This document shows positions 4,917 through 15,331 of a DNA stretch of 32,845 nucleotides, piece by piece. Each line of letters begins with the position of its first letter. The first letter of the stretch is position 1. The notes below the pieces were generated by a model. That model searched no databases. It was not told where the DNA came from and worked only from the letters and a program-made list of their open reading frames with translations. The DNA is taken from the IMG/VR virus record IMGVR_UViG_3300017963_000555, positions 1 through 32,845 of that record. One strand, written 5' to 3'. Source of the stretch: a virus. Made by a program: the position numbers and the translations under genes.

Positions 4917-5046
4917 AGCGTTCCTCCAAACACTTCTGGTGTACCTTGTCGTGCCCGACGTTGTGATACATCTCCTGCACCGTGATCCCGAGCCCGCAGT
5001 AGTGGCACAGGCCCATATAGCGAGTTGCAATCTTGCCGTCTTCCAT
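4846..5046 (-). CDS. Small Cys/His protein, first gene of the leftward array
   Basis: The 66-residue product starts MEDGKIATRYMGLCHYCGLG. CHYC plus GHDKVHQKC gives a C-x2-C...H...C zinc site, followed by a basic helix (LEERFERRQGN). The same layout recurs at 920-1177 and 1458-1763. A good AAGGGGG ribosome site precedes ATG 5046. As the promoter-proximal gene of the array it is probably the first one translated. Function unknown. Confidence 0.65.
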   Translation of the reverse strand: MEDGKIATRYMGLCHYCGLGITVQEMYHNVGHDKVHQKCLEERFERRQGNADYRGSGKRNDPDPTS

Positions 5047-5117
5047 CGGTTCCCCCTTGCCACCGAACGAAAAATGGTCTACACCCACTGTACCACAGGG
5101 CGGTTGCGGGGTGGGGC
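5047..5117. promoter_or_regulatory. Divergent control region
   Basis: This 71-bp gap is the only point where the leftward array and the rightward genes diverge, so promoters for both are expected here. For the rightward direction, TTGCCA (5057-5062) and TACACC (5080-5085) are 17 bp apart, a weak sigma70-like match. I see no convincing leftward -10/-35 pair. The promoter role is inferred from gene orientation. Confidence 0.35.
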
Positions 5118-5498
5118 ATGAACAGCGTGCGGCTGTCGGGATTTCTGGATAGTGACCCGAGGATGTTCCCTGCACAGGGACGAAGACGCGCAATGGCAAT
5201 CCTCGACCTGCGGGTGCGATCACCATACGACCCGAAGAAGGCCGACTGGCACAAGGTCGTGGTCTACGGGCCGCTCGCCGAACACTGCGGACGGCATCTC
5301 CGCAAGGGCATGATGATCCAGCTCGATGGGGTGCTTACCACGTCCCGGTGGAAGGACGGCGACAAGTTCCGCAAGGCGGTGCAGGTTGTCGCGCAGTCCA
5401 TCTCGCTGGGGTTCCACCGGAACGCGACCGAACGCCTGGAGGTGGCCCTGCTCCTCGCGGGGCAGCAAGGCGACGACGTGGAGGTTGAAGAGGACTGA
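5118..5498 (+). CDS. ssb: Single-stranded DNA-binding protein (OB fold)
   Basis: The 126-residue product starts MNSVRLSGFLDSDPRMFPAQ and follows the SSB plan: first strand (VRLSGFL), DLRVRSPYDP, then WHKVVVYGPLAEHC (the conserved W-x-x-V-x-x-(F/Y)G-x-x-A block), LRKGMMIQLDGVLTTSRWKD and a final strand. It ends in a short acidic tail (GDDVEVEED) without the classical DDDIPF tip. It would coat single-stranded DNA during phage replication or recombination. ATG 5118 follows a GGGGTGGGG stretch. Upstream in-frame codons reach into the control region and are rejected. Confidence 0.85.
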   Translation: MNSVRLSGFLDSDPRMFPAQGRRRAMAILDLRVRSPYDPKKADWHKVVVYGPLAEHCGRHLRKGMMIQLDGVLTTSRWKDGDKFRKAVQVVAQSISLGFHRNATERLEVALLLAGQQGDDVEVEED

Positions 5499-5616
5499 GG
5501 CGGGTGCGCCCGACCGGCCAACGGCTCCACGCACAGATCCGCCGTGAGAGCCTGCGGTACGAGGGCGCATCCCCCTCGGCGTGCACAGAATGACACACTC
5601 GGGAGGGGTTGTGGCG
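5499..5616 (+). other. Intergenic gap between SSB and peptidase genes
   Basis: I see no separate gene or clear promoter here. The last part contains the GGGAGGGG ribosome site (5601-5608) of the peptidase gene, with in-frame GTG (5581) and ATG (5590) codons that I do not use as starts. Confidence 0.4.
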
Positions 5617-6117
5617 ATGGAGACACGGGTAGTGAGGATCGACGGCCAGGATGTCCCAGACGTGAAAGTCTCGGATCACTTCTGGTTGAGCGACTTTCGG
5701 GTGTATTGGCCCAAGCGGGTCTGTAAGCACGATCGGTTCCCGGTTGTGTGTCAGGATGTAGACGCGGCGACGGCACTGGCGAATAGTCTGGAGGTGCTCC
5801 GCGAGAAGCTCCGCAAGCCTATCATCATCACCGACTGTCTCCGGCCCACCTGGCTCGTCCGCTACATCCCCGATTCAGCACGAAACTCCAGACATCTCAC
5901 CAAATGGATCTCGAAGCGCATCATGGCGGTGGACTTCAAGGTGCCAGGTGTATCCATGAAGCGGGTTTACAAGGTTGCCGACGAGCTGATGAGCGAGCCC
6001 ACGATGCGCTACGGCATCGGCAGACCCACGCGCATGGGTGAGGGCGGTCTCGGGTACTACCGCAGCCACATCCACTACGACAACCGTGGTTATCGAGCAC
6101 GTTGGGGGTTGAAGTAA
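5617..6117 (+). CDS. M15-type zinc peptidase (probable endolysin)
   Basis: The 166-residue product resembles Peptidase_M15 proteins. SRH (H93) and AVD (D106) correspond to the first two zinc ligands, and GYYRSHIHYD (H153, D155) to the third ligand and catalytic end. RPIIITDCLRPTW-like sequence (67-79) matches the strand before the active site. The family cuts peptide bonds in cell-wall peptidoglycan, so this is a likely lysis enzyme. H93 and D106 are farther apart than the usual H-x6-D, pointing to a small insertion. ATG 5617 lies eight bases after GGGAGGGG; GTG 5581 and ATG 5590 are alternatives. Confidence 0.75.
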   Translation: METRVVRIDGQDVPDVKVSDHFWLSDFRVYWPKRVCKHDRFPVVCQDVDAATALANSLEVLREKLRKPIIITDCLRPTWLVRYIPDSARNSRHLTKWISKRIMAVDFKVPGVSMKRVYKVADELMSEPTMRYGIGRPTRMGEGGLGYYRSHIHYDNRGYRARWGLK

Positions 6118-6184
6118 CCGGCTCTGACTGGTACAGTTCCCCCGTTGAAACACCTTCGTACCACGTGCGTTGGTTCCCCTTGGG

Positions 6185-6221
6185 ACGGCTCCGGCTCACA
6201 CACCCGGAGCCGTTCTGTTTT
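6185..6221 (+). terminator. Rho-independent terminator after the peptidase gene
   Basis: A perfect 10-bp stem, ACGGCTCCGG (6185-6194) paired with CCGGAGCCGT (6204-6213), encloses a 9-nt loop and is followed by TCTGTTTT. This is a classical intrinsic terminator. It separates the SSB/peptidase transcript from the late genes that begin at 6296. Confidence 0.85.
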
Positions 6222-6295
6222 CGGGCAACTTGACATTTCTGCGCCATATCGCCCACGCTCTTCATGGGTTGTGAAGTGTGGTGGGGTGGTGTGGA
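6222..6295 (+). promoter_or_regulatory. Possible late-gene promoter region
   Basis: A TTGACA hexamer (6230-6235) lies just after the terminator and before the terminase gene, where a promoter is needed. No good -10 hexamer is present at 16-18 bp (that segment is CCCACG-like). Either a phage-specific or activator-dependent promoter is used, or the hexamer is chance. The G/T-rich end (GTGGGGTGGTGTGG) supplies the ribosome site. Confidence 0.3.
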
Positions 6296-7084
6296 ATGCC
6301 CGAGCGGTTGACGAGCGAGCGCGTCCTGCGGTCGCAAGCCCAGCTCAAGGATCTCGAAGCGTTCGATCGCGAGCTGCTCCGGCAACTCGGGATGAATCGC
6401 CGTTGTGCGACCTCGAAGGTCCAGAAGGTCATCGAGAAGTGCACGAAGGATCCCGAATACTACATCTTCGGCGGTTTCGTTCGGACATTCGATGAGCGAT
6501 CCCGCAAGTTCCCCCGAAAACCCTTCCCTACCGACAAGAAGTACCTCCGAGCAGCACTCCAACACATCCACGGCAAAGAATCAGGAGACGTAGCCGCGAT
6601 TTCCAAGTCGCGGCAGTTGATGTTGACCTGGCTCTGCTGCGCGTATGCAACCTGGGAAGCCCGCTTCCACCCGCAATCGCGGGTGATGATCCAATCCAAG
6701 AAGGCAGAAGACGCATGGAACCTCGTGTACCGCAACTCGTGGCTGCATGCCCGTTGCGCGTTCATCGAGAGGGCGATGCCGCTGTTCATGCGCGCTACCG
6801 AGCTGACCCCGACCCGAGGTGAGCTGTGGTATCCCAACGGATCGGTGATCGCTGGGATCCCGCAGGGTGCCGATATGTTCCGTTCCTACACCGCCTCGCT
6901 GGTGATCTGCGACGAGGCTGCCTTCCAACCCGAGTTCGAGGACGCATACAAAGCAGCTCTTCCGATGGCGAAGGGCTACCCGGATGACCCCGACTCCGGT
7001 GGCCGCATCATTCTCATCACGACCGCCGCAGCCGGTAGCTACTACGCAACCCTCGTGGAAGAGGACGATAAGGAGGCGGCCTGA
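6296..7084 (+). CDS. terL: Terminase large subunit, N-terminal ATPase part (split gene)
   Basis: The 262-residue product carries only the ATPase half of a terminase large subunit, the motor that pumps DNA into the prohead. AISKSRQLMLTW (101-112) is the variant Walker A of this terminase group, SLVICDEAAF (201-210) the Walker B with its Asp-Glu pair, and RIILITTAA (237-245) the coupling motif. The protein ends about 17 residues after that motif, where a complete protein of about 550-600 residues would continue into the nuclease. That missing half lies at 9452-10357. ATG 6296 follows a G-rich site; GTG 6278 is an alternative. Its stop overlaps the next start (TGATG). Confidence 0.85.
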   Translation: MPERLTSERVLRSQAQLKDLEAFDRELLRQLGMNRRCATSKVQKVIEKCTKDPEYYIFGGFVRTFDERSRKFPRKPFPTDKKYLRAALQHIHGKESGDVAAISKSRQLMLTWLCCAYATWEARFHPQSRVMIQSKKAEDAWNLVYRNSWLHARCAFIERAMPLFMRATELTPTRGELWYPNGSVIAGIPQGADMFRSYTASLVICDEAAFQPEFEDAYKAALPMAKGYPDDPDSGGRIILITTAAAGSYYATLVEEDDKEAA

Positions 7085-7809
7085 TGGGCTGGAGAAAAGA
7101 CCAGTTCTTGCTCTGGTCGAGTGACGGCACCAACGACATCACACTCGGCACTACGAACCAGTGCCACAACGTCCCGCTCGACAAAGACAATCCCCCAAAC
7201 GACGTGGCGGACATCGGGAGCCTGAACTACTACAACCCCGCGTCACTCGACCGGATCGACGTGACGCACTACGAGAAATTCGCGCTCTACTCGGTAACGC
7301 GCCCCGTGCAGGGCACTGACTCTGTTGGGTTCTCCGCCAACCCGGCCGCGACAGTCGTTTCGGTCCCGGTGCCGGTCGGCAGCGCCCACGAGGGCAACGC
7401 GCTGCTGAATAGCCCCTGGGACATCGCGCCCGCAGCCCAGCACGCATCAGCCGTTTACAACGAGCACCGCATCACATTCCACGCCCCCACAGCATCACTG
7501 ACTGGCACGCGGGGCAATGCAGACGGAAGCGTTACTGGGCAATGGACGTACTGGGGTTGGCGTCAGGCGGGACTGTCCGTCAATCCGCTCGATATTGCCT
7601 CTTCGATGATCTTCCTCGGCTATCCGTCTATGGCGGCAGCCGGAAGCCCGTGGACTGGAGCATGGGAAGGGCTGCCGAGCGTCATGGCATACGACGAACT
7701 CATGGTGAGCCTCATGTGGGTGCCGCAGTGGGGAGGAGTCATCTCAACGCCGCTTCGCATTCTCGGCAGGGTCTACGGCATCGGGTACTACCAAGAGCGA
7801 GGTCAGTGA
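7084..7809 (+). CDS. Unknown protein, tandem paralogue 1 (inside the terminase gap)
   Basis: The 241-residue product starts MGWRKDQFLLWSSDGTNDIT. It is rich in Trp, Tyr, Pro and Gly, has no signal peptide or membrane segment, and looks like a beta-rich structural protein. The next gene encodes a close paralogue; shared blocks include the LYSVTRPVQGT, GNALLNSPW and AWEGLPSVMAYDE segments. Its position among late genes suggests a virion component, but no family is recognised. Start and stop overlap the neighbours (TGATG). Confidence 0.78.
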   Translation: MGWRKDQFLLWSSDGTNDITLGTTNQCHNVPLDKDNPPNDVADIGSLNYYNPASLDRIDVTHYEKFALYSVTRPVQGTDSVGFSANPAATVVSVPVPVGSAHEGNALLNSPWDIAPAAQHASAVYNEHRITFHAPTASLTGTRGNADGSVTGQWTYWGWRQAGLSVNPLDIASSMIFLGYPSMAAAGSPWTGAWEGLPSVMAYDELMVSLMWVPQWGGVISTPLRILGRVYGIGYYQERGQ

Positions 7810-8549
7810 TGGGCTGGCGAAAAGAGCAATTCCTGCTGTGGTCCAGCGATGGGACCAACGACATTACGCTCGGCACGAGCGGGAATCTGCACAACATCCC
7901 GCTCGACGTGGATGATCCACCAAACGACGTGGTGGATACAACGAGTGCGGCCAACTACTACAACCCCACATACCTCGACCGCATCAACGTGCAGAATTAC
8001 GAGAAGTTCGGGCTCTATTCGGTAACGCGCCCCGTGCAGGGCACTGTTGCAGTGAATTGGACTGCAACTCCGCCGGTAACGACCGTGGCGGTTCCGGTCC
8101 CAGTGGGAAGCATGCACGAAGGTAACGCGCTGCTGAATAGCCCCTGGAACGCCGCACCCGCCGCCCAGCATTTGAATGCCCTCTACGCCCAACACCAGAT
8201 TTGTTGGCAAACGCCAGCCGAGGTCTCTCTCGCGGGAATACGAGCAGACGCAGACGGCAACCTGGCTGGCGCTCCCCGGAACGGACGTGACCAGTGGGCA
8301 AGTTGGGGCTGGCGCTCGGGTGCGGTGGCGAACGTCAACCCGCTCGATGTTATCTCTTCGATGATTTGGCTCGGTTACCCGAGCGTCTCGGGGAACACGA
8401 TGTTCGGGGCCTGGGAAGGGCTGCCGAGCGTCATGGCATACGACGAAATAATGGTCAGCCTTATGTGGGATCCCCAGTGGGCGGGAGCGATCACAACGCC
8501 GCTTCGGATCCTCGGCAAAGTGTGGGGCATCGGACTGTATCAGGAATAG
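7809..8549 (+). CDS. Unknown protein, tandem paralogue 2
   Basis: The 246-residue product starts MGWRKEQFLLWSSDGTNDIT and aligns along its whole length with the preceding protein, by eye with well over half the residues identical. It has a short extra segment (NLAGAPRNGRDQ). DNA blocks such as the one around 8017-8044 are nearly identical to 7291-7318, so the duplication is fairly recent. The frame is open upstream to 7542, but the conserved N-terminus fixes the start at 7809, overlapping the previous stop. Likely structural; function unknown. Confidence 0.78.
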   Translation: MGWRKEQFLLWSSDGTNDITLGTSGNLHNIPLDVDDPPNDVVDTTSAANYYNPTYLDRINVQNYEKFGLYSVTRPVQGTVAVNWTATPPVTTVAVPVPVGSMHEGNALLNSPWNAAPAAQHLNALYAQHQICWQTPAEVSLAGIRADADGNLAGAPRNGRDQWASWGWRSGAVANVNPLDVISSMIWLGYPSVSGNTMFGAWEGLPSVMAYDEIMVSLMWDPQWAGAITTPLRILGKVWGIGLYQE

Positions 8550-8559
8550 GAGGATCAAC

Positions 8560-8895
8560 GTGACCCCCGAAACAATGGCAATTCTCATCACGATTGGTGC
8601 CCTCATCGGCATCATCGCCAAGCGAGTGAAGTGGATCAACAACCAGGCGATCCCATTCGTCATCCTCGTTTGGCAGTACATCGGCGCGCTCTTGGATGGC
8701 GCGGGATACCTACCGGGCAGCTCCGACGCTGCCATCAAACCGATTGGCTACGCCGTCGCCGGATTGTTGTCGGTGTTCGAGCCCTTCAAGGTGGCCCTCG
8801 TGAATACGGCCATCAACGTATTTCTGCATCAGGTGCAGAAAGCTCTACGGCGGCTGCCGTGGAAGTACGTGACGAGCGGATCCGTCACTCGTTAG
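8560..8895 (+). CDS. Small membrane protein (holin-like?)
   Basis: The 111-residue product starts with GTG 8560 after a good AGGAGG site. Hydrophobic segments lie at about residues 4-20 (ETMAILITIGALIGIIAK), 31-47 (IPFVILVWQYIGALLDG) and 60-85 (PIGYAVAGLLSVFEPF), followed by a basic C-terminus (HQVQKALRRLPWK). Size, two or three membrane spans and basic tail are compatible with a holin, but also with an unrelated membrane protein. It lies in the gap between the terminase halves, not next to the peptidase gene. Confidence 0.62.
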   Translation: MTPETMAILITIGALIGIIAKRVKWINNQAIPFVILVWQYIGALLDGAGYLPGSSDAAIKPIGYAVAGLLSVFEPFKVALVNTAINVFLHQVQKALRRLPWKYVTSGSVTR

Positions 8896-8921
8896 CAACT
8901 TGCAACGAGAGGTGGTAACCA

Positions 8922-9446
8922 ATGGCGTTCGAGGATCTGTTCGGTGACTTCGAGTACAAGAACACCGAACTCGGCAGCCTCGCCGACTTCAGCTACGAGG
9001 TGTGTGTCACAACCGCCCGTGAACAGTCGGCAGGCACAACGATGGGCCTCGACCAACACGCGATGGGGCGTCAACGCGCCTACATCCAGAACGCACGAGA
9101 CCGGCTGGCTGGCCTTGCAGGCAGGCCGATGCCGGATCTCCCTGCCGTCCATCCGATGACGTTTATGACCACGCAGGTTCCCCCGGAACTCATCAGCGTG
9201 GACGGCAAGCCGCTGAACACGGACGCCGTGGCAGTGGCTCAGATGTGGCAAATGCTCTCCTACGAGCTGCTGAAGTCGAATTCGGCAGGTCTTGGGGGAG
9301 GGATGACCGTGTTCGACGCCAACCGATGCGCGCAGAACATCTCCTCGGTGGAGCAGTTCCTCATCGCCATCGAAGAAGCTGGGGACGTGGACTTCCCCGA
9401 AACAGCGTCCCCCGAGGCGAAGCCCGGCGGCGCAAAGAAGAAGTAG
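8922..9446 (+). CDS. Unknown 174-aa protein before the nuclease half
   Basis: The 174-residue product starts MAFEDLFGDFEYKNTELGSL. A central helical part (MGRQRAYIQNARDRLAGLAG) and a later one (AVAQMWQMLSYELLKSN) surround Pro-rich loops. The tail is flexible and basic (EAKPGGAKKK). No family is recognised. A ribosome site (GAGAGGTGG) precedes ATG 8922, and the nuclease gene begins six bases after its stop, so the two are probably co-translated. A small-terminase or packaging role is possible from position only. Confidence 0.65.
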   Translation: MAFEDLFGDFEYKNTELGSLADFSYEVCVTTAREQSAGTTMGLDQHAMGRQRAYIQNARDRLAGLAGRPMPDLPAVHPMTFMTTQVPPELISVDGKPLNTDAVAVAQMWQMLSYELLKSNSAGLGGGMTVFDANRCAQNISSVEQFLIAIEEAGDVDFPETASPEAKPGGAKKK

Positions 9447-9451
9447 GAGAA

Positions 9452-10357
9452 GTGTCGAAAGGCATCGAATACTACACCACCCGCGATGGCGTGCGCGTCA
9501 TGCGGTTGCACTACTCGGCGGATGAGGTCAAAGACCCAGACACCGAGAAGGGAATGCGATGGTTCCAGTCGCAGGTCAAGGGCTATCCAGGCGGGCAAGC
9601 GGGCTCCAAGTGGCAGCAGGAAATGGAAATCAATTTCCAAATCTTCGGCGGTCGCAAGGTGTACCCCGATTGGCTCGAACGTCAGGCGCATGTCGCCGTG
9701 CCCAAGTTCAACGTGCCCGAGGAGTGGCCGCTCTACGCGGGCTACGACTACGGCACTGCGAACCCAATGGCCTTCACTCCCATCGCATTCAAGTCCATCG
9801 ACGAATGCGTCCAGATCGACGAAATCGTAATGACGGGCCTCACGGTCCCCCAGCAGGCGAAGGCCATCAAAGCCAAGCCCTACTGGGAACGGATACGGGG
9901 CATTGTTGGAGATCCATCGATCTGGCGGCGCACTCAGGGACAGGACGAAGAGCGACTCAAATCCATTGGCGAGATGTTCGAGGACGAGGGCATCTACATC
10001 GAGAAGGGGCGCAACGAGCCGGGCGTAGACATGGCCTATGTTGCTCTGCTCGACGGATACCTCTGGCAAAAGAAGGACTCGCCAAAGTTCCAAATCTTCG
10101 ACCACTGCGTCGAGACGCTCAAGTGCTACCGGAATCTGCGGAAGAAGCAGCATACGACCGCGCACGCCATCGCCAACATGGACGACCCCGAAGCCATCGT
10201 GCAGAAGGGGATCGATGCCTTCGATGCGAACAAGTACATCCTCCTGTCTCGGGGGTTCGAGACGCCTGACGCAATCGTCTCGATGCCAGGAACCTGGGGC
10301 TGGTGGGCCGAGCAGATCGAGAAGAAGCAGCAACGAGGGAAGTACGTACTGGCATGA
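9452..10357 (+). CDS. terL: Terminase large subunit, C-terminal nuclease part (split gene)
   Basis: The 301-residue product starts MSKGIEYYTTRDGVRVMRLH from GTG 9452, just after AGGAGA. It holds the linker (YPGGQAGSKWQQEMEINFQ) and then the RNase H-like nuclease: YAGYDYG (D99), IVGDPSIW (D154) and QKGIDAFDANKYILLSRG (D255), the three acidic positions expected to hold metal. This domain cuts concatemeric DNA at the start and end of packaging. No ATPase motif is present; that half is at 6296-7084. A longer frame reaches up to 9245, but it overlaps the upstream gene and is not used. Confidence 0.85.
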   Translation: MSKGIEYYTTRDGVRVMRLHYSADEVKDPDTEKGMRWFQSQVKGYPGGQAGSKWQQEMEINFQIFGGRKVYPDWLERQAHVAVPKFNVPEEWPLYAGYDYGTANPMAFTPIAFKSIDECVQIDEIVMTGLTVPQQAKAIKAKPYWERIRGIVGDPSIWRRTQGQDEERLKSIGEMFEDEGIYIEKGRNEPGVDMAYVALLDGYLWQKKDSPKFQIFDHCVETLKCYRNLRKKQHTTAHAIANMDDPEAIVQKGIDAFDANKYILLSRGFETPDAIVSMPGTWGWWAEQIEKKQQRGKYVLA

Positions 10358-10548
10358 GAAGCAAGACGACCAAGAAGGTTGAGAAGCTGCTGTCGGAAGA
10401 GCAGGGCCGATTCAAGCCGACTGCGATCTACAAGTGCGGACGCTGCCTGTTCGAGAAACACGTTCGCGCAGACCTGATCCCCGTGCAGTTGATGTGCGCT
10501 CATTGCGAGAAGCCCATTCGACCACGGATCGTGCGGGAGCAGAAATGA
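10354..10548 (+). CDS. Small zinc-ribbon protein
   Basis: The 64-residue product starts MRSKTTKKVEKLLSEEQGRF. YKCGRCLFEKHVRADL followed by LMCAHCEKPIRP gives two C-x2-C knuckles, a zinc ribbon. The rest is basic. ATG 10354 overlaps the nuclease stop (ATGA), and its own stop overlaps the next start. A nucleic-acid or packaging partner role is possible; function unknown. Confidence 0.7.
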   Translation: MRSKTTKKVEKLLSEEQGRFKPTAIYKCGRCLFEKHVRADLIPVQLMCAHCEKPIRPRIVREQK

Positions 10549-10838
10549 AGCGAACCTTCTGCGATGGGTGCTACCACCGAGGCGACCTGAAGGAGCTGGT
10601 GGAACCCAACTTCGGGAAGGTCCGGTTGAGCGACACCTCGGCAGTGGTCCTCGATCTGTGCTTCGACTGCATGCCGCACTACGAGAAATTCGCGGCGACG
10701 ATGGACAACATGACGCTCGATAGCGCCAGGAAGTTCAAACGCCAGTGTGAGGAAGAGGAACAGAAGTTCTGGGCGGCGGTGAAACATGGCGGCGCGAAAG
10801 AAGAAGACAAGGGCAAGCATACCACCAGGGTCGGGTAG
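10545..10838 (+). CDS. Small zinc-finger protein
   Basis: The 97-residue product starts MKRTFCDGCYHRGDLKELVE. CDGC near the N-terminus and DLCFDCMPHYEKF provide two C-x2-C pairs about 35 residues apart, a zinc-finger plan. A charged helix (ARKFKRQCEEEEQKFWAAVK) forms the C-terminal part. The start overlaps the previous stop (ATGA), and the 3' end overlaps the portal gene by 53 bp. Function unknown. Confidence 0.7.
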   Translation: MKRTFCDGCYHRGDLKELVEPNFGKVRLSDTSAVVLDLCFDCMPHYEKFAATMDNMTLDSARKFKRQCEEEEQKFWAAVKHGGAKEEDKGKHTTRVG

Positions 10839-12798
10839 GGCCGGCCTTGCAAATGCACGTCTGAAGGACACGCGGAAAGGGCGGCGTCGGCAGAACGACG
10901 TGCGACTCGACGAGACCTTCGTGCGGATGGCAGAGGCGCAGTCCGAGAACTACTTTAAGACCTTCCAGCGGAACATCGACTTCTATGTCGGCAAGCAGAA
11001 CCCCGGTTTCACCTGGGACTGGGAGATCGACGACTGGGACTACGGTGATCCCACCGAAAAGCGCATCGTCGTCAACCGCATCCTGGCGGTCCTGGCGAGC
11101 CAGAACGCGCAGATCATGTGGCAGATCCCGTGGTTCAACCTGCACGCCCGTCGAGCGTCTGGGCTCGGAGACGATGAACAGCGCGAGGCGGCAGAACACG
11201 CACTCAACTACGTGCTCCAGGCACCAAAGAACAACTTCCTCCTGCATGCGCGCCTGACGTTGTTGATGGCGCACTTCGGAGTCGGGTTCCTGAAGCATAC
11301 CTACGTGCCGGACCTGGGCATCGACCCCGAGAAGGACAAGCCCGAGCAGCTCGGCGAGGTTGCCTACGAGGTGGACCCGCTCACGGGCGAAGAGCGCATC
11401 GAGTTCGTCGGCGGGACTCCGAAGCTCCGCGCAGACGGTACACCCATCCGACGCGGACGCACCAAGTTCGTCGTAGACAACCGCAATCCGGCCGACTACT
11501 TCCGAACCGACTGGGTGCACTTTTTGGACATGCGGATCGATCCGGAGGGCGCGAACGACCTTCAGGAGCACCAGAAGATCGGCGAGCGTATGAGCTGGAC
11601 CCTCGAAGAGTTCGAGGCGGTGGAGTTCTTCGAGCACAAGAAGGAGATCACCAACGCTCTGCGCTTCGTAGACCGGGACGGCCTCTCGCGCAACACGCGG
11701 GCACGGCTGGAAGGCAGTAATGCGGCCTTCAATCCGGCGGAGCCGCTCACACTCACACCCAACGATCGACACCTCTCGCGGATCTGGGGCACCCAAATCT
11801 GGGATTTGAAGAAGCGCGAGATCCGGTACATCGTCGATGGATTCGACAAACTTGTAGGCAAGATGCCGTTTCCACCGTACATCGAGACCTCGCCGTATAG
11901 CGACTGCAAGATCCATGAGGTGCCCGGAGAGTATTGGCCGATTACCGAGATCGAGGCGGCCCGCCCGCTGGCGCTCGGCTACAACGAGATGTGGAGTGGG
12001 TTGCTCACCCACTTCCGGCGCTTCAAGCGCAAATACATCTCCCGGTTCGGGATGCTCGATGAGAGCGAGAAGGCGAAGCTCGCCGATCCCGACGATGGCG
12101 TTGTAGTCGAATTCCGCAAGGGCAACAGAACAGACATTGGAGCACTCGAAGACGCGCCATTGGACCCGGCAATCTATCGCATGATGGCTCGGTTCATCGA
12201 CGACATGAGCGAGATCCTGGGGAACTCCCCGGAGGCGCGGGGCATTGCCGACAGCGACACGGCAACGCAAGCCGCCATCATCGAACGCAGTGGTACTGCC
12301 AGGGACAATGATAAACGGGCCACGGTCGCCCGATGCCTGGAACGGCACGCCAAGATCACGCTCGACTCCATGCAGTACAACATGGACGAGCGCATGCAGG
12401 TGAACATCACTGGACCTCGCGGAACGGCGTTCGAGGGGCGGCTCTCGCGCCTTCAGATCCAGGGCGATTTCAAGACACGCATCGACCTGACCGAACTGGA
12501 ACCGCATGACCTCGCCGCCGAACGTCAGGAGCTTGGGAACATCGTCTCCCTCCTCGGGCCTGCGGCGTTCCTGGCTCCGACGTTCAGCAAGCGGTTCTTC
12601 ACCGCCCACAGGTTCAACGACCCACAGATGGTGGTCGAGTTCCAGCAGGTTGCGGCCATGCTGGTCGGCCAGCAGGAAGGGCCGGGACCGGGCTCGCAGG
12701 GCGGGCCGAAGCAGACCGGGCAGGGTCCGGAAGGCAACCGATTCGCCGAGGGCCGTAGCAACGGCCGGACTGCGCGCACGTCGGAGGGCAATGGATGA
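10786..12798 (+). CDS. Portal protein
   Basis: The 670-residue product fits the dodecameric portal through which DNA enters and leaves the head. Size and position (after the terminase, before scaffold and capsid) match podovirus portals. A basic N-terminus precedes a helical region (FVRMAEAQSENYFKTFQRNI) and KRIVVNRILAVLASQNAQIM, typical of the portal clip/stem entry. The C-terminal part contains AIIERSGTARDNDKRATVAR and ends in a flexible Gly/Gln/Pro tail. The gene starts 53 bp inside the previous one. A 624-aa antisense frame over this gene is a coding shadow. Confidence 0.8.
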   Translation: MAARKKKTRASIPPGSGRAGLANARLKDTRKGRRRQNDVRLDETFVRMAEAQSENYFKTFQRNIDFYVGKQNPGFTWDWEIDDWDYGDPTEKRIVVNRILAVLASQNAQIMWQIPWFNLHARRASGLGDDEQREAAEHALNYVLQAPKNNFLLHARLTLLMAHFGVGFLKHTYVPDLGIDPEKDKPEQLGEVAYEVDPLTGEERIEFVGGTPKLRADGTPIRRGRTKFVVDNRNPADYFRTDWVHFLDMRIDPEGANDLQEHQKIGERMSWTLEEFEAVEFFEHKKEITNALRFVDRDGLSRNTRARLEGSNAAFNPAEPLTLTPNDRHLSRIWGTQIWDLKKREIRYIVDGFDKLVGKMPFPPYIETSPYSDCKIHEVPGEYWPITEIEAARPLALGYNEMWSGLLTHFRRFKRKYISRFGMLDESEKAKLADPDDGVVVEFRKGNRTDIGALEDAPLDPAIYRMMARFIDDMSEILGNSPEARGIADSDTATQAAIIERSGTARDNDKRATVARCLERHAKITLDSMQYNMDERMQVNITGPRGTAFEGRLSRLQIQGDFKTRIDLTELEPHDLAAERQELGNIVSLLGPAAFLAPTFSKRFFTAHRFNDPQMVVEFQQVAAMLVGQQEGPGPGSQGGPKQTGQGPEGNRFAEGRSNGRTARTSEGNG

Positions 12799-14212: not shown

Positions 14213-15331
14213 ATGGCTTCGACTTCGGAACTGCGGATCTATTCCGCGCTGTTCTCCACGACTCTCGATGACCATTCGCCGGACTTGGCGGATAACGTAT
14301 TCCTGGGCATCCCGTACCTCTGGTACATGATGAACAGGGGTCGTGGTCGAGACCGTGGAGCGGGGCGCGGGATTCGATTCCAGAACGGCGGCGCTCGGGT
14401 GAAGGTGCCCGTGATTTGGGCAGAGAACGCGAACGCCGGTTCCTACTCGAAGTTCGAGATTCTCAGCGTCAACCCCACGGATTCGATCACGGTCACGATC
14501 GAGGACTTGGCGCAGCTTGCCTGCACGGTGGGAATCTCGGGCGAAGAGATGGATCAGAACCAGGGTCTCGCTGCAAAGCGGGAACTCTTGCGCGACAAGG
14601 TAGACATCGCAGAGATGACCTTGAAGCAAATGGTCGAGCAGCAGCTCGTCCAGGGAATCGTGGACCCGGCCCCGGCTGGTCTTCCATTCAACTTTGTGGC
14701 AGGCAACAGCGGGAAGGATCTACTCCCGCTCGGCTGGCTAATCAAGAAGGAGTGGACCACCGGAGACTCGGTTCACAACATCGACGAAGGTGCCGAGGAC
14801 TGGTGGCGCAACCGCATCCAGCTTTCGGCCGTCGGTACGAACACGGCATTGGCATTCCGGCGAGAGATGGCCCATCTCTACAACGAATGCTCCCGTGGCT
14901 CCAACCAAGATCACCCCGACCTGATTCTGGCAGACCAGAACTACTTCGAGTGCTACGAGGCTGGGCTCACTGCGAACCAGCGGTACGGCAACTACGGAGA
15001 CGACGGTATCACCAGCGCCGGGTTCGAGGCGATGAAGTTCAAGGGTGCGATGATGTTCTGGTCGGACTACATGCCCGACTTCGGCGACACCGCAGCCGAT
15101 ACGGTGGCCCTCGCACAAACTGCTACGCAGGCCGGTGCGTTCTTCCTGAACACCCGCTGGATCGAGCTTGTGATCTCGCGGAACCTGTTCTTCAAGAGCA
15201 CCGACTTCATCGAGCCCTACGATCAGGATGCTATCTGGGCCAAGATCCTGTTCCGTGGGCAGCAAACAGTCAAACAGCGCCGCAAGCAGGGACTCCACCA
15301 CGGAGTCGATGCTGTGGCCTGTGTGGCGTGA
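14213..15331 (+). CDS. Major capsid protein
   Basis: The 372-residue product follows the scaffold and has the size and composition of an HK97-fold capsid protein. Visible features are an N-terminal arm (MASTSELRIYSALFSTTLDD), a long helix region (GEEMDQNQGLAAKRELLRDK) that could be the spine helix, then DLILADQNYFECYEAGLTAN and MKFKGAMMFWSDYMPDF near the A-domain end. The C-terminus is basic (QTVKQRRKQGLHHG). GGAGAGGTGAGGA precedes ATG 14213. The call rests on position and general pattern. Confidence 0.8.
   Translation: MASTSELRIYSALFSTTLDDHSPDLADNVFLGIPYLWYMMNRGRGRDRGAGRGIRFQNGGARVKVPVIWAENANAGSYSKFEILSVNPTDSITVTIEDLAQLACTVGISGEEMDQNQGLAAKRELLRDKVDIAEMTLKQMVEQQLVQGIVDPAPAGLPFNFVAGNSGKDLLPLGWLIKKEWTTGDSVHNIDEGAEDWWRNRIQLSAVGTNTALAFRREMAHLYNECSRGSNQDHPDLILADQNYFECYEAGLTANQRYGNYGDDGITSAGFEAMKFKGAMMFWSDYMPDFGDTAADTVALAQTATQAGAFFLNTRWIELVISRNLFFKSTDFIEPYDQDAIWAKILFRGQQTVKQRRKQGLHHGVDAVACVA

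Follow-up and report, generated by a model that had tools for sequence, protein, structure and literature searches.

The window analysed here is the whole of IMG/VR virus record IMGVR_UViG_3300017963_000555, 32,845 bases from an uncultured bacterial virus, and it carries the large terminase (TerL) as two separate genes. An open reading frame (ORF) with the ATPase motifs (6296–7084, ATG start) and another with the nuclease residues (9452–10357, GTG start) each have their own start and stop, as an earlier note on this DNA had claimed. The two ORFs match PHROG family 2 (TerL) in order, the ATPase ORF at profile positions 250–404 of 807 (expect value (E) 2.1e-11) and the nuclease ORF at positions 445–597 (E 1.3e-7). 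As expected of a TerL, the halves adjoin portal and head protein genes, which lie downstream, and the portal protein is the expected docking partner of the packaging motor. The gene order runs M15 peptidase, ATPase, two paralogues, small membrane protein, 174-residue protein, nuclease, small ORFs and portal:

5025–5498: gene for a single-strand DNA-binding protein (PF00436, E 4.8e-11), immediately preceding the M15 peptidase and ATPase genes
5581–6117, plus strand: M15 peptidase, likely endolysin, upstream of the ATPase gene (PF08291, E 5.6e-6)
6296–7084, plus strand: TerL ATPase gene, 262 amino acids, ATG start; KSRQLMLTW P-loop, Walker B D206–E207, motif III ITTAA
7084–7809, plus strand: cargo gene 1, 241 amino acids, tandem paralogue, function unassigned; a homologue lies in the gap of locus L038
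7809–8549, plus strand: cargo gene 2, 246 amino acids, 65% identical to cargo gene 1
8560–8895, plus strand: small membrane protein, weakly holin-like, 111 amino acids (phrog_1129, E 0.0025; PF16079, E 0.012, under the cut-off)
8922–9446, plus strand: 174-amino-acid protein, function unassigned; a homologue lies directly before the nuclease gene in L038
9452–10357, plus strand: TerL nuclease gene, 301 amino acids, GTG start; RNase H-type, D99, E124, D154, D258
10786–12798, plus strand: P22-like portal protein (PF16510, E 5.4e-6, 25.6 bits against a cut-off of 26.1; phrog_156, E 2e-7)
14213–15331, plus strand: major head protein (phrog_9953, E 4.2e-31)

The four ORFs in the gap agree with the earlier description of four same-strand genes comprising two tandem paralogues, a membrane protein and a 174-residue protein. 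Because the ATPase stop overlaps the start of cargo gene 1 by 1 nt (TGATG), the two cargo genes also overlap by 1 nt, and an AGGAG stretch precedes the nuclease GTG start, the region reads as one operon. Of the nuclease aspartates named in the earlier note, D99 and D154 hold, but the third is D258 rather than D255, which is absent from the relative L007; and although the nuclease does occupy a separate gene from 9452, its first ~35–60 residues precede the part that matches nucleases. By sequence the window ATPase is a homologue, if a divergent one, of the T4-type Terminase_6N proteins, with a score against the Pfam model (16.2 bits) below the cut-off of 22.

We checked the junctions of the window against a second assembly as well as against relatives. 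The record G001 (44,818 bp) comes from the same phage: over 16.9 kb (16,903 bp, four mismatches) it is 99.98% identical to the window, and it has the same split and the same junctions. It is a circular permutation that contains the entire window and a further 11.9 kb. From the 27-bp overlap between its ends we deduce that the genome is closed, at ~44.79 kb, even though the IMG/VR record is classed as linear. A full-length TerL elsewhere in the genome, which the earlier note had named as evidence that would overturn the split, was not found: a phrog_2 search of the window, G001, G002 (the genome of L006) and G003 (that of L007) returned halves only. That search overlooked the nuclease half of G002, which the family alignment detects, so the absence of another TerL is only as good as the reach of the profile.

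Relatives and gene order

Two relatives from the viral collection, L006 (found with the ATPase half) and L007 (found with a two-member alignment), also have a split TerL, their ATPase halves being 57% and 59% identical to that of the window and their nuclease halves both 42%. A search with the three nucleases led to 56 loci, in which L002, L008 and L041 are contigs of G001, L006 and L007; the 56 loci examined are the window (standing for G001), L006, L007 and 53 others. Both TerL parts are present in 50 loci and a single part in the other six (L039, L040, L063, L072, L073 and L086). TerL is fused in 5 of the 50 (594 and 585 amino acids, and three near-copies of 504 amino acids), split with the genes adjacent or overlapping in 8 (−4 to 25 nt) and split with the genes separated in 11, by gaps of 181–2,367 nt; these lengths rest on script-chosen start codons, and some genes are cut by contig ends (L048, L049, L056 and L067). 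The remaining 26 loci have the reversed order nuclease, small terminase, ATPase, with the genes 1.37–2.18 kb apart. In every one of these 26, a Terminase_2-type small terminase lies between the halves in a frame that overlaps the ATPase frame (Pfam E 1.8e-12 for the L058 copy). ATPase and nuclease are thus in separate genes in 45 of the 50 loci, so that the split in related phages, a check that the earlier note had proposed, is found widely. On this evidence the family is a genuine, widespread two-gene TerL variant with the break inside the ATPase domain. Two scans of genome contigs (prophages) gave no relative; L037, which lies outside the analysed loci, has a 25% partial ATPase match.

In a tree of 36 representatives at 95% identity (467 columns, IQ-TREE), the reversed loci form one clade (15 rows, support 100/100) and the window clusters with L038, L006, L007 and L042 (100/100). 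Two fused members, L071 and L078, pair with each other (100/97) and together group with an adjacent-split member (93/90); the longest branch belongs to the third fused member, and IQ-TREE warns of long branches meeting. As L071 and L078 nest among split members, the history may have been either one fission with re-fusion or repeated splitting.

Standard models detect these proteins to differing extents. At E 0.01, Pfam terminase models match 3 of 32 ATPase rows and none of 33 nuclease rows, fused members included, whereas PHROGs at E 1 match all three ATPase halves tested and at least two of the three nuclease halves. The split therefore matters for annotation.

In 28 loci (all 26 reversed loci plus two fragments), the gene after the nuclease encodes a conserved protein of ~190 residues (for example, L058:9087–9728). 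The L058 copy has no Pfam or PHROG match. We considered whether this protein, which in the reversed clade lies between nuclease and small terminase, is a second nuclease-like domain, but do not claim it (hhalign E 0.0036, probability 9%; here and below, an hhalign E applies to one comparison).

Position of the break

The ATPase alignment (A5) contains 32 of the 36 representatives and the nuclease alignment (A6) 31 of them, together with L040 and L073. The ATPase protein of every one of the 33 split representatives ends 4–20 residues past the end of the family profile match (position 206–207), with a tail mostly of 7–12 residues (11 in the window). Nuclease genes match from profile position 1–2 in 28 of the 33 split representatives and from position 5–10 in the remainder. 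The match of the 32-row ATPase profile to T4 gp17 (E 1.7e-17) ends at residue 294; adding the 7–12-residue tail puts the break at ~301–306, before a strand at ~307–315 of the RB32 homologue. The crystallised gp17 ATPase construct, 2o0h, has a length of 385 and an offset of 25, and would cover residues ~1–360 if it has no C-terminal tag; the gp17 lid lies at ~314–360. On these alignments the break falls at a common site shortly past ATPase motif III, within the ATPase domain rather than at the hinge.

The missing end of the domain probably corresponds to the first ~35–60 residues of the nuclease protein, which would supply the last strand and lid. The 33-row nuclease profile matches the terminases of D6E (2e-9), SPP1 (4e-7) and P22 (5e-6) only from profile position ~76–91 onward. 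Nuclease columns 1–62 instead match columns 220–262 of a T4-type set (E 0.0021), directly after the end of the ATPase half at column 209, and when the fused rows are removed the score of 24.0 (E 0.0041) is reached by none of 300 column shuffles (maximum 22.9). In a global profile alignment with 11 intact TerLs, the ATPase half covers columns 1–231 and the nuclease half columns 179–482 of 483 (E 1e-13 and 2e-27, respectively).

Conserved residues, selection and co-inheritance

The ATPase residues K104, S105, R196, D206 and E207 are invariant in all 32 rows, and A244 of motif III is present in at least 90% of them. None of the 32 rows has the classical P-loop lysine (T4 K166 in the alignments), and K104, six residues upstream, is the invariant lysine. 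In the 33 nuclease rows Y21, W54, E57, E59, D99 and D154 are invariant; E124 and D258 are present in at least 90%, with D258 invariant in three relatives.

Both genes are under purifying selection. The ratio of nonsynonymous to synonymous substitution rates (dN/dS) is 0.02–0.08 in 14 of 18 comparisons (nine pairs, two genes), and in the other four synonymous sites are saturated, including both window–L038 comparisons (proportions of nonsynonymous differences, pN, 0.24 and 0.22; of synonymous differences, pS, 0.82 and 0.77). Across 528 pairs, the identities of ATPase and nuclease are correlated (r 0.97), which is what joint inheritance would give. The family thus has the P-loop ATPase motifs and RNase H-type acidic residues of a TerL, but not its single polypeptide; with separate genes in 45 of 50 loci, it would function as a TerL does, in a two-gene form.

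The two parts differ in their nearest relatives

The ATPase part resembles T4-type terminases and the nuclease part, for the most part, another terminase group. By hhalign, the ATPase half matches the T4-type set at 3e-31 but barely the non-T4 set (8e-4 over 51 columns), whereas nuclease columns 63–262 match the non-T4 set at 6.5e-33 and show no match to the T4 type (0.17); nuclease columns 1–62 have no match to the non-T4 set (0.61). We also compared 16 intact TerLs from phage records, chosen for matching one half: five match only the ATPase profile (E ≤ 2e-17), 11 only the nuclease profile (E ≤ 5e-13) and none both, and although that choice makes the proportions meaningless, the absence of double matches stands. 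The lineage boundary would lie ~35–60 residues into the nuclease gene. As the gene boundary precedes it, the events are most simply ordered as a domain swap followed by gene fission. A chimeric TerL, with a T4-type ATPase and an SPP1/P22/D6E-type nuclease joined near the domain boundary, may have been broken later inside the ATPase domain; cargo genes may then have come between its halves, or the halves may have changed order around the small terminase.

Two isolates, Microbacterium phage Shocker (L097) and Cellulosimicrobium phage DS1 (L096), have intact TerLs whose nucleases are the best and third-best family matches of the 16 and whose ATPases have no match. In Shocker a peptidase and a membrane protein precede TerL; in the window a membrane protein lies between ATPase and nuclease.

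Introns and inteins

The earlier note had seen no intron or intein in the gap, and neither did our searches. Rfam gave no match at E ≤ 1 in window positions 5500–11000. In the 10 other loci with separated halves it gave none that reached the gathering score, and it gave nothing at the junctions of the 8 adjacent and 2 of the 26 reversed loci, which makes 21 loci covered in all. The same search recovered a group I intron (RF00028, E 4.9e-13) in L067 at 7179–7470, ~5.5 kb downstream of adjacent-split terminase genes (22–1680), showing that it is able to see such introns. Pfam searches of the 33 nuclease and 32 ATPase rows found no intein at a junction, and intein domains only in the L077 nuclease, near its C terminus. 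In alignment A6 the third catalytic motif of that split gene (L077:2300–3679) is disrupted by an intein splicing domain (PF14890, E 3.6e-7).

A probable two-protein packaging motor

The reading that we favour, with a probability of about 0.74, is that TerL here is a functional two-polypeptide large terminase in which the nuclease protein completes the ATPase in trans. The ATPase polypeptide would contribute the P-loop, Walker B and coupling motif III and end before the last strand and lid of its domain; the nuclease polypeptide would begin with the ~35–60 residues that match the missing piece and continue into the nuclease. The two would associate, and copies of the pair would dock on the portal, translocate DNA and make headful cuts. 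Separate genes, a common break inside the ATPase domain, retained active-site residues, purifying selection, co-inheritance and different relatives of the parts are read from the sequences themselves, and from them we infer physical association, fold completion in trans and a pentameric stoichiometry. For the narrower proposal, that the last core strand and lid from the nuclease polypeptide complete the ATPase fold and that ATP is hydrolysed only after pairing, we see even odds. Of two suggestions in the earlier note, a two-protein complex thus stands as the likely mode of action, and a role for the gap proteins in the motor does not.

Several results weigh against this reading. T4 gp17 that has been split at its linker keeps ATPase and nuclease activity and loses translocation (PMC3012670, PMC9958956), so that a split motor is not obviously workable, though gp17 was cut elsewhere. 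The match of the nuclease N terminus to T4-type terminases is weak when taken alone (HH probability 13%, or 8% without the fused rows). Nor is the lineage boundary clear-cut: taken as a whole, the nuclease profile matches not just the non-T4 set, from column 36 onward, but the T4-type set too, over columns 9–150 (E 7.5e-5, probability 62%). AlphaFold models from three-sequence alignments of each half were too poor for use (mean predicted local distance difference test, pLDDT, 42 and 34). Finally, no small terminase was recognised in the window, where the Terminase_2 profile is negative, as it is in other non-reversed split loci.

The two proteins might instead act in succession and never form one motor, the ATPase translocating alone and the nuclease making only the initiation and termination cuts. 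The phi29-type packaging ATPases, homologues of TerL, work without an active nuclease of their own and keep an inactive, vestigial nuclease domain, and the accessible text names no separate nuclease partner in that system (PMC9410871); moreover, the reversed order and the distance in 26 of 50 loci mean that coupled translation is not needed. Against this, the break inside the ATPase domain would leave the ATPase polypeptide without part of its own domain, while a piece that matches the missing part, with the invariant residues Y21, W54, E57 and E59, starts the nuclease polypeptide, and we consider succession unlikely.

Joining of the halves after all, through an intron, trans-splicing, a split intein or ribosomal bypassing, has precedents of a kind in Enterococcus phage iF6, where a TerL fragment is reported next to VSR endonuclease genes that have been inserted (PMC10054541), and in the inteins of the Mic1 TerL (PMC7156551). 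The Rfam and Pfam results at the junctions speak against it, as do gaps that differ in size and content and the 26 of 50 loci that are reversed with a small terminase between the halves, and we judge a joined product very improbable. The metagenomic origin of the data also allows for misassembly, or for a decaying terminase that another has replaced. Given identical junctions in G001, a split found in many lineages, retained active-site residues, the low dN/dS wherever it is computable and no other TerL found in an apparently closed genome, this is hardly credible.

Comparison with known systems

Published descriptions have TerL as a single chain whose engine and nuclease meet at a hinge (PMC3012670, PMC9958956). 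The split family has the ATPase core, the Walker B DE and the coupling motif in common with T4 gp17 and T4-type proteins (RB32, RM378, PA5oct and ct52p938). It differs from gp17, a single chain, in its two genes and in the replacement of the classical P-loop lysine by one upstream; the gp17 nuclease has no sequence-level match to the family nuclease profile and only a weak one in profile–profile comparison. A lysine N-terminal to the classical Walker A position is also described for the P-loops of lambda gpA and HK97, of which HK97 keeps the classical lysine as well, whereas lambda, like the split family, has only the shifted one (PMC9410871). The family nuclease profile matches the RNase H nuclease of SPP1, P22 and D6E and of the TerLs of Shocker, DS1, KIT05 and NV1. 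Shocker, NV1 and KIT05 share with the window a lysis gene–TerL–portal neighbourhood, but the named TerLs are intact, and the ATPase profile matches neither any of the 11 members of their group nor D6E (E ≤ 1).

Coding sequences for TerL in two or more pieces are also described for Bastillevirinae, Jug phages and iF6, where terL is interrupted by group I introns or endonuclease genes (PMC11878797, PMC12363816, PMC10054541). In the cases shown there, the pieces are spliced back together or just one of them is thought to be functional; in the split family, by contrast, no intron was found, the window cargo genes are not endonucleases and one clade has the order reversed. A literature search that lacked most subscription journals found no description of a TerL whose ATPase and nuclease are encoded as stand-alone genes. 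Under annotation guides for actinobacteriophages, the ATPase domain and the nuclease domain of TerL may be called separately, and isolated split cases may be known.

A widespread natural two-gene TerL, broken within the engine itself, suggests that natural motors can do without covalent continuity. As linker-split gp17 loses translocation, the natural split is a useful test, and a ready system for asking which contacts transmit force. If completion in trans is correct, the motor would run with its ATPase core and nuclease not covalently linked, against what the T4 splitting experiments indicate; its assembly would be set by partner binding, and nucleases would be exchangeable between lineages.

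Genes between the halves

The earlier suggestion that gap proteins take part in the motor does not fit the variation between loci. Eight of the 50 loci have virtually no gap and 26 are reversed; the gap of L006 holds one holin-like ORF and that of L007 frames of about 340 and 75 residues, and tblastn found none of the window cargo genes in L006 or L007 (E ≤ 1 for L007). We reject the cargo genes as common motor parts on these differences in content: the intervening genes vary or are absent, making them unlikely components. The second cargo paralogue has no tblastn match at E 0.01 in the named phage collection; the L038 gap encodes a 240-residue homologue of the window cargo paralogues. Homology among the small membrane proteins of the window, L006 and L042 is unconvincing, their pairwise scores being reached by 22 (window–L006), 47 (window–L042) and 125 (L006–L042) of 500 shuffles. 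The three proteins are alike in being short and hydrophobic.

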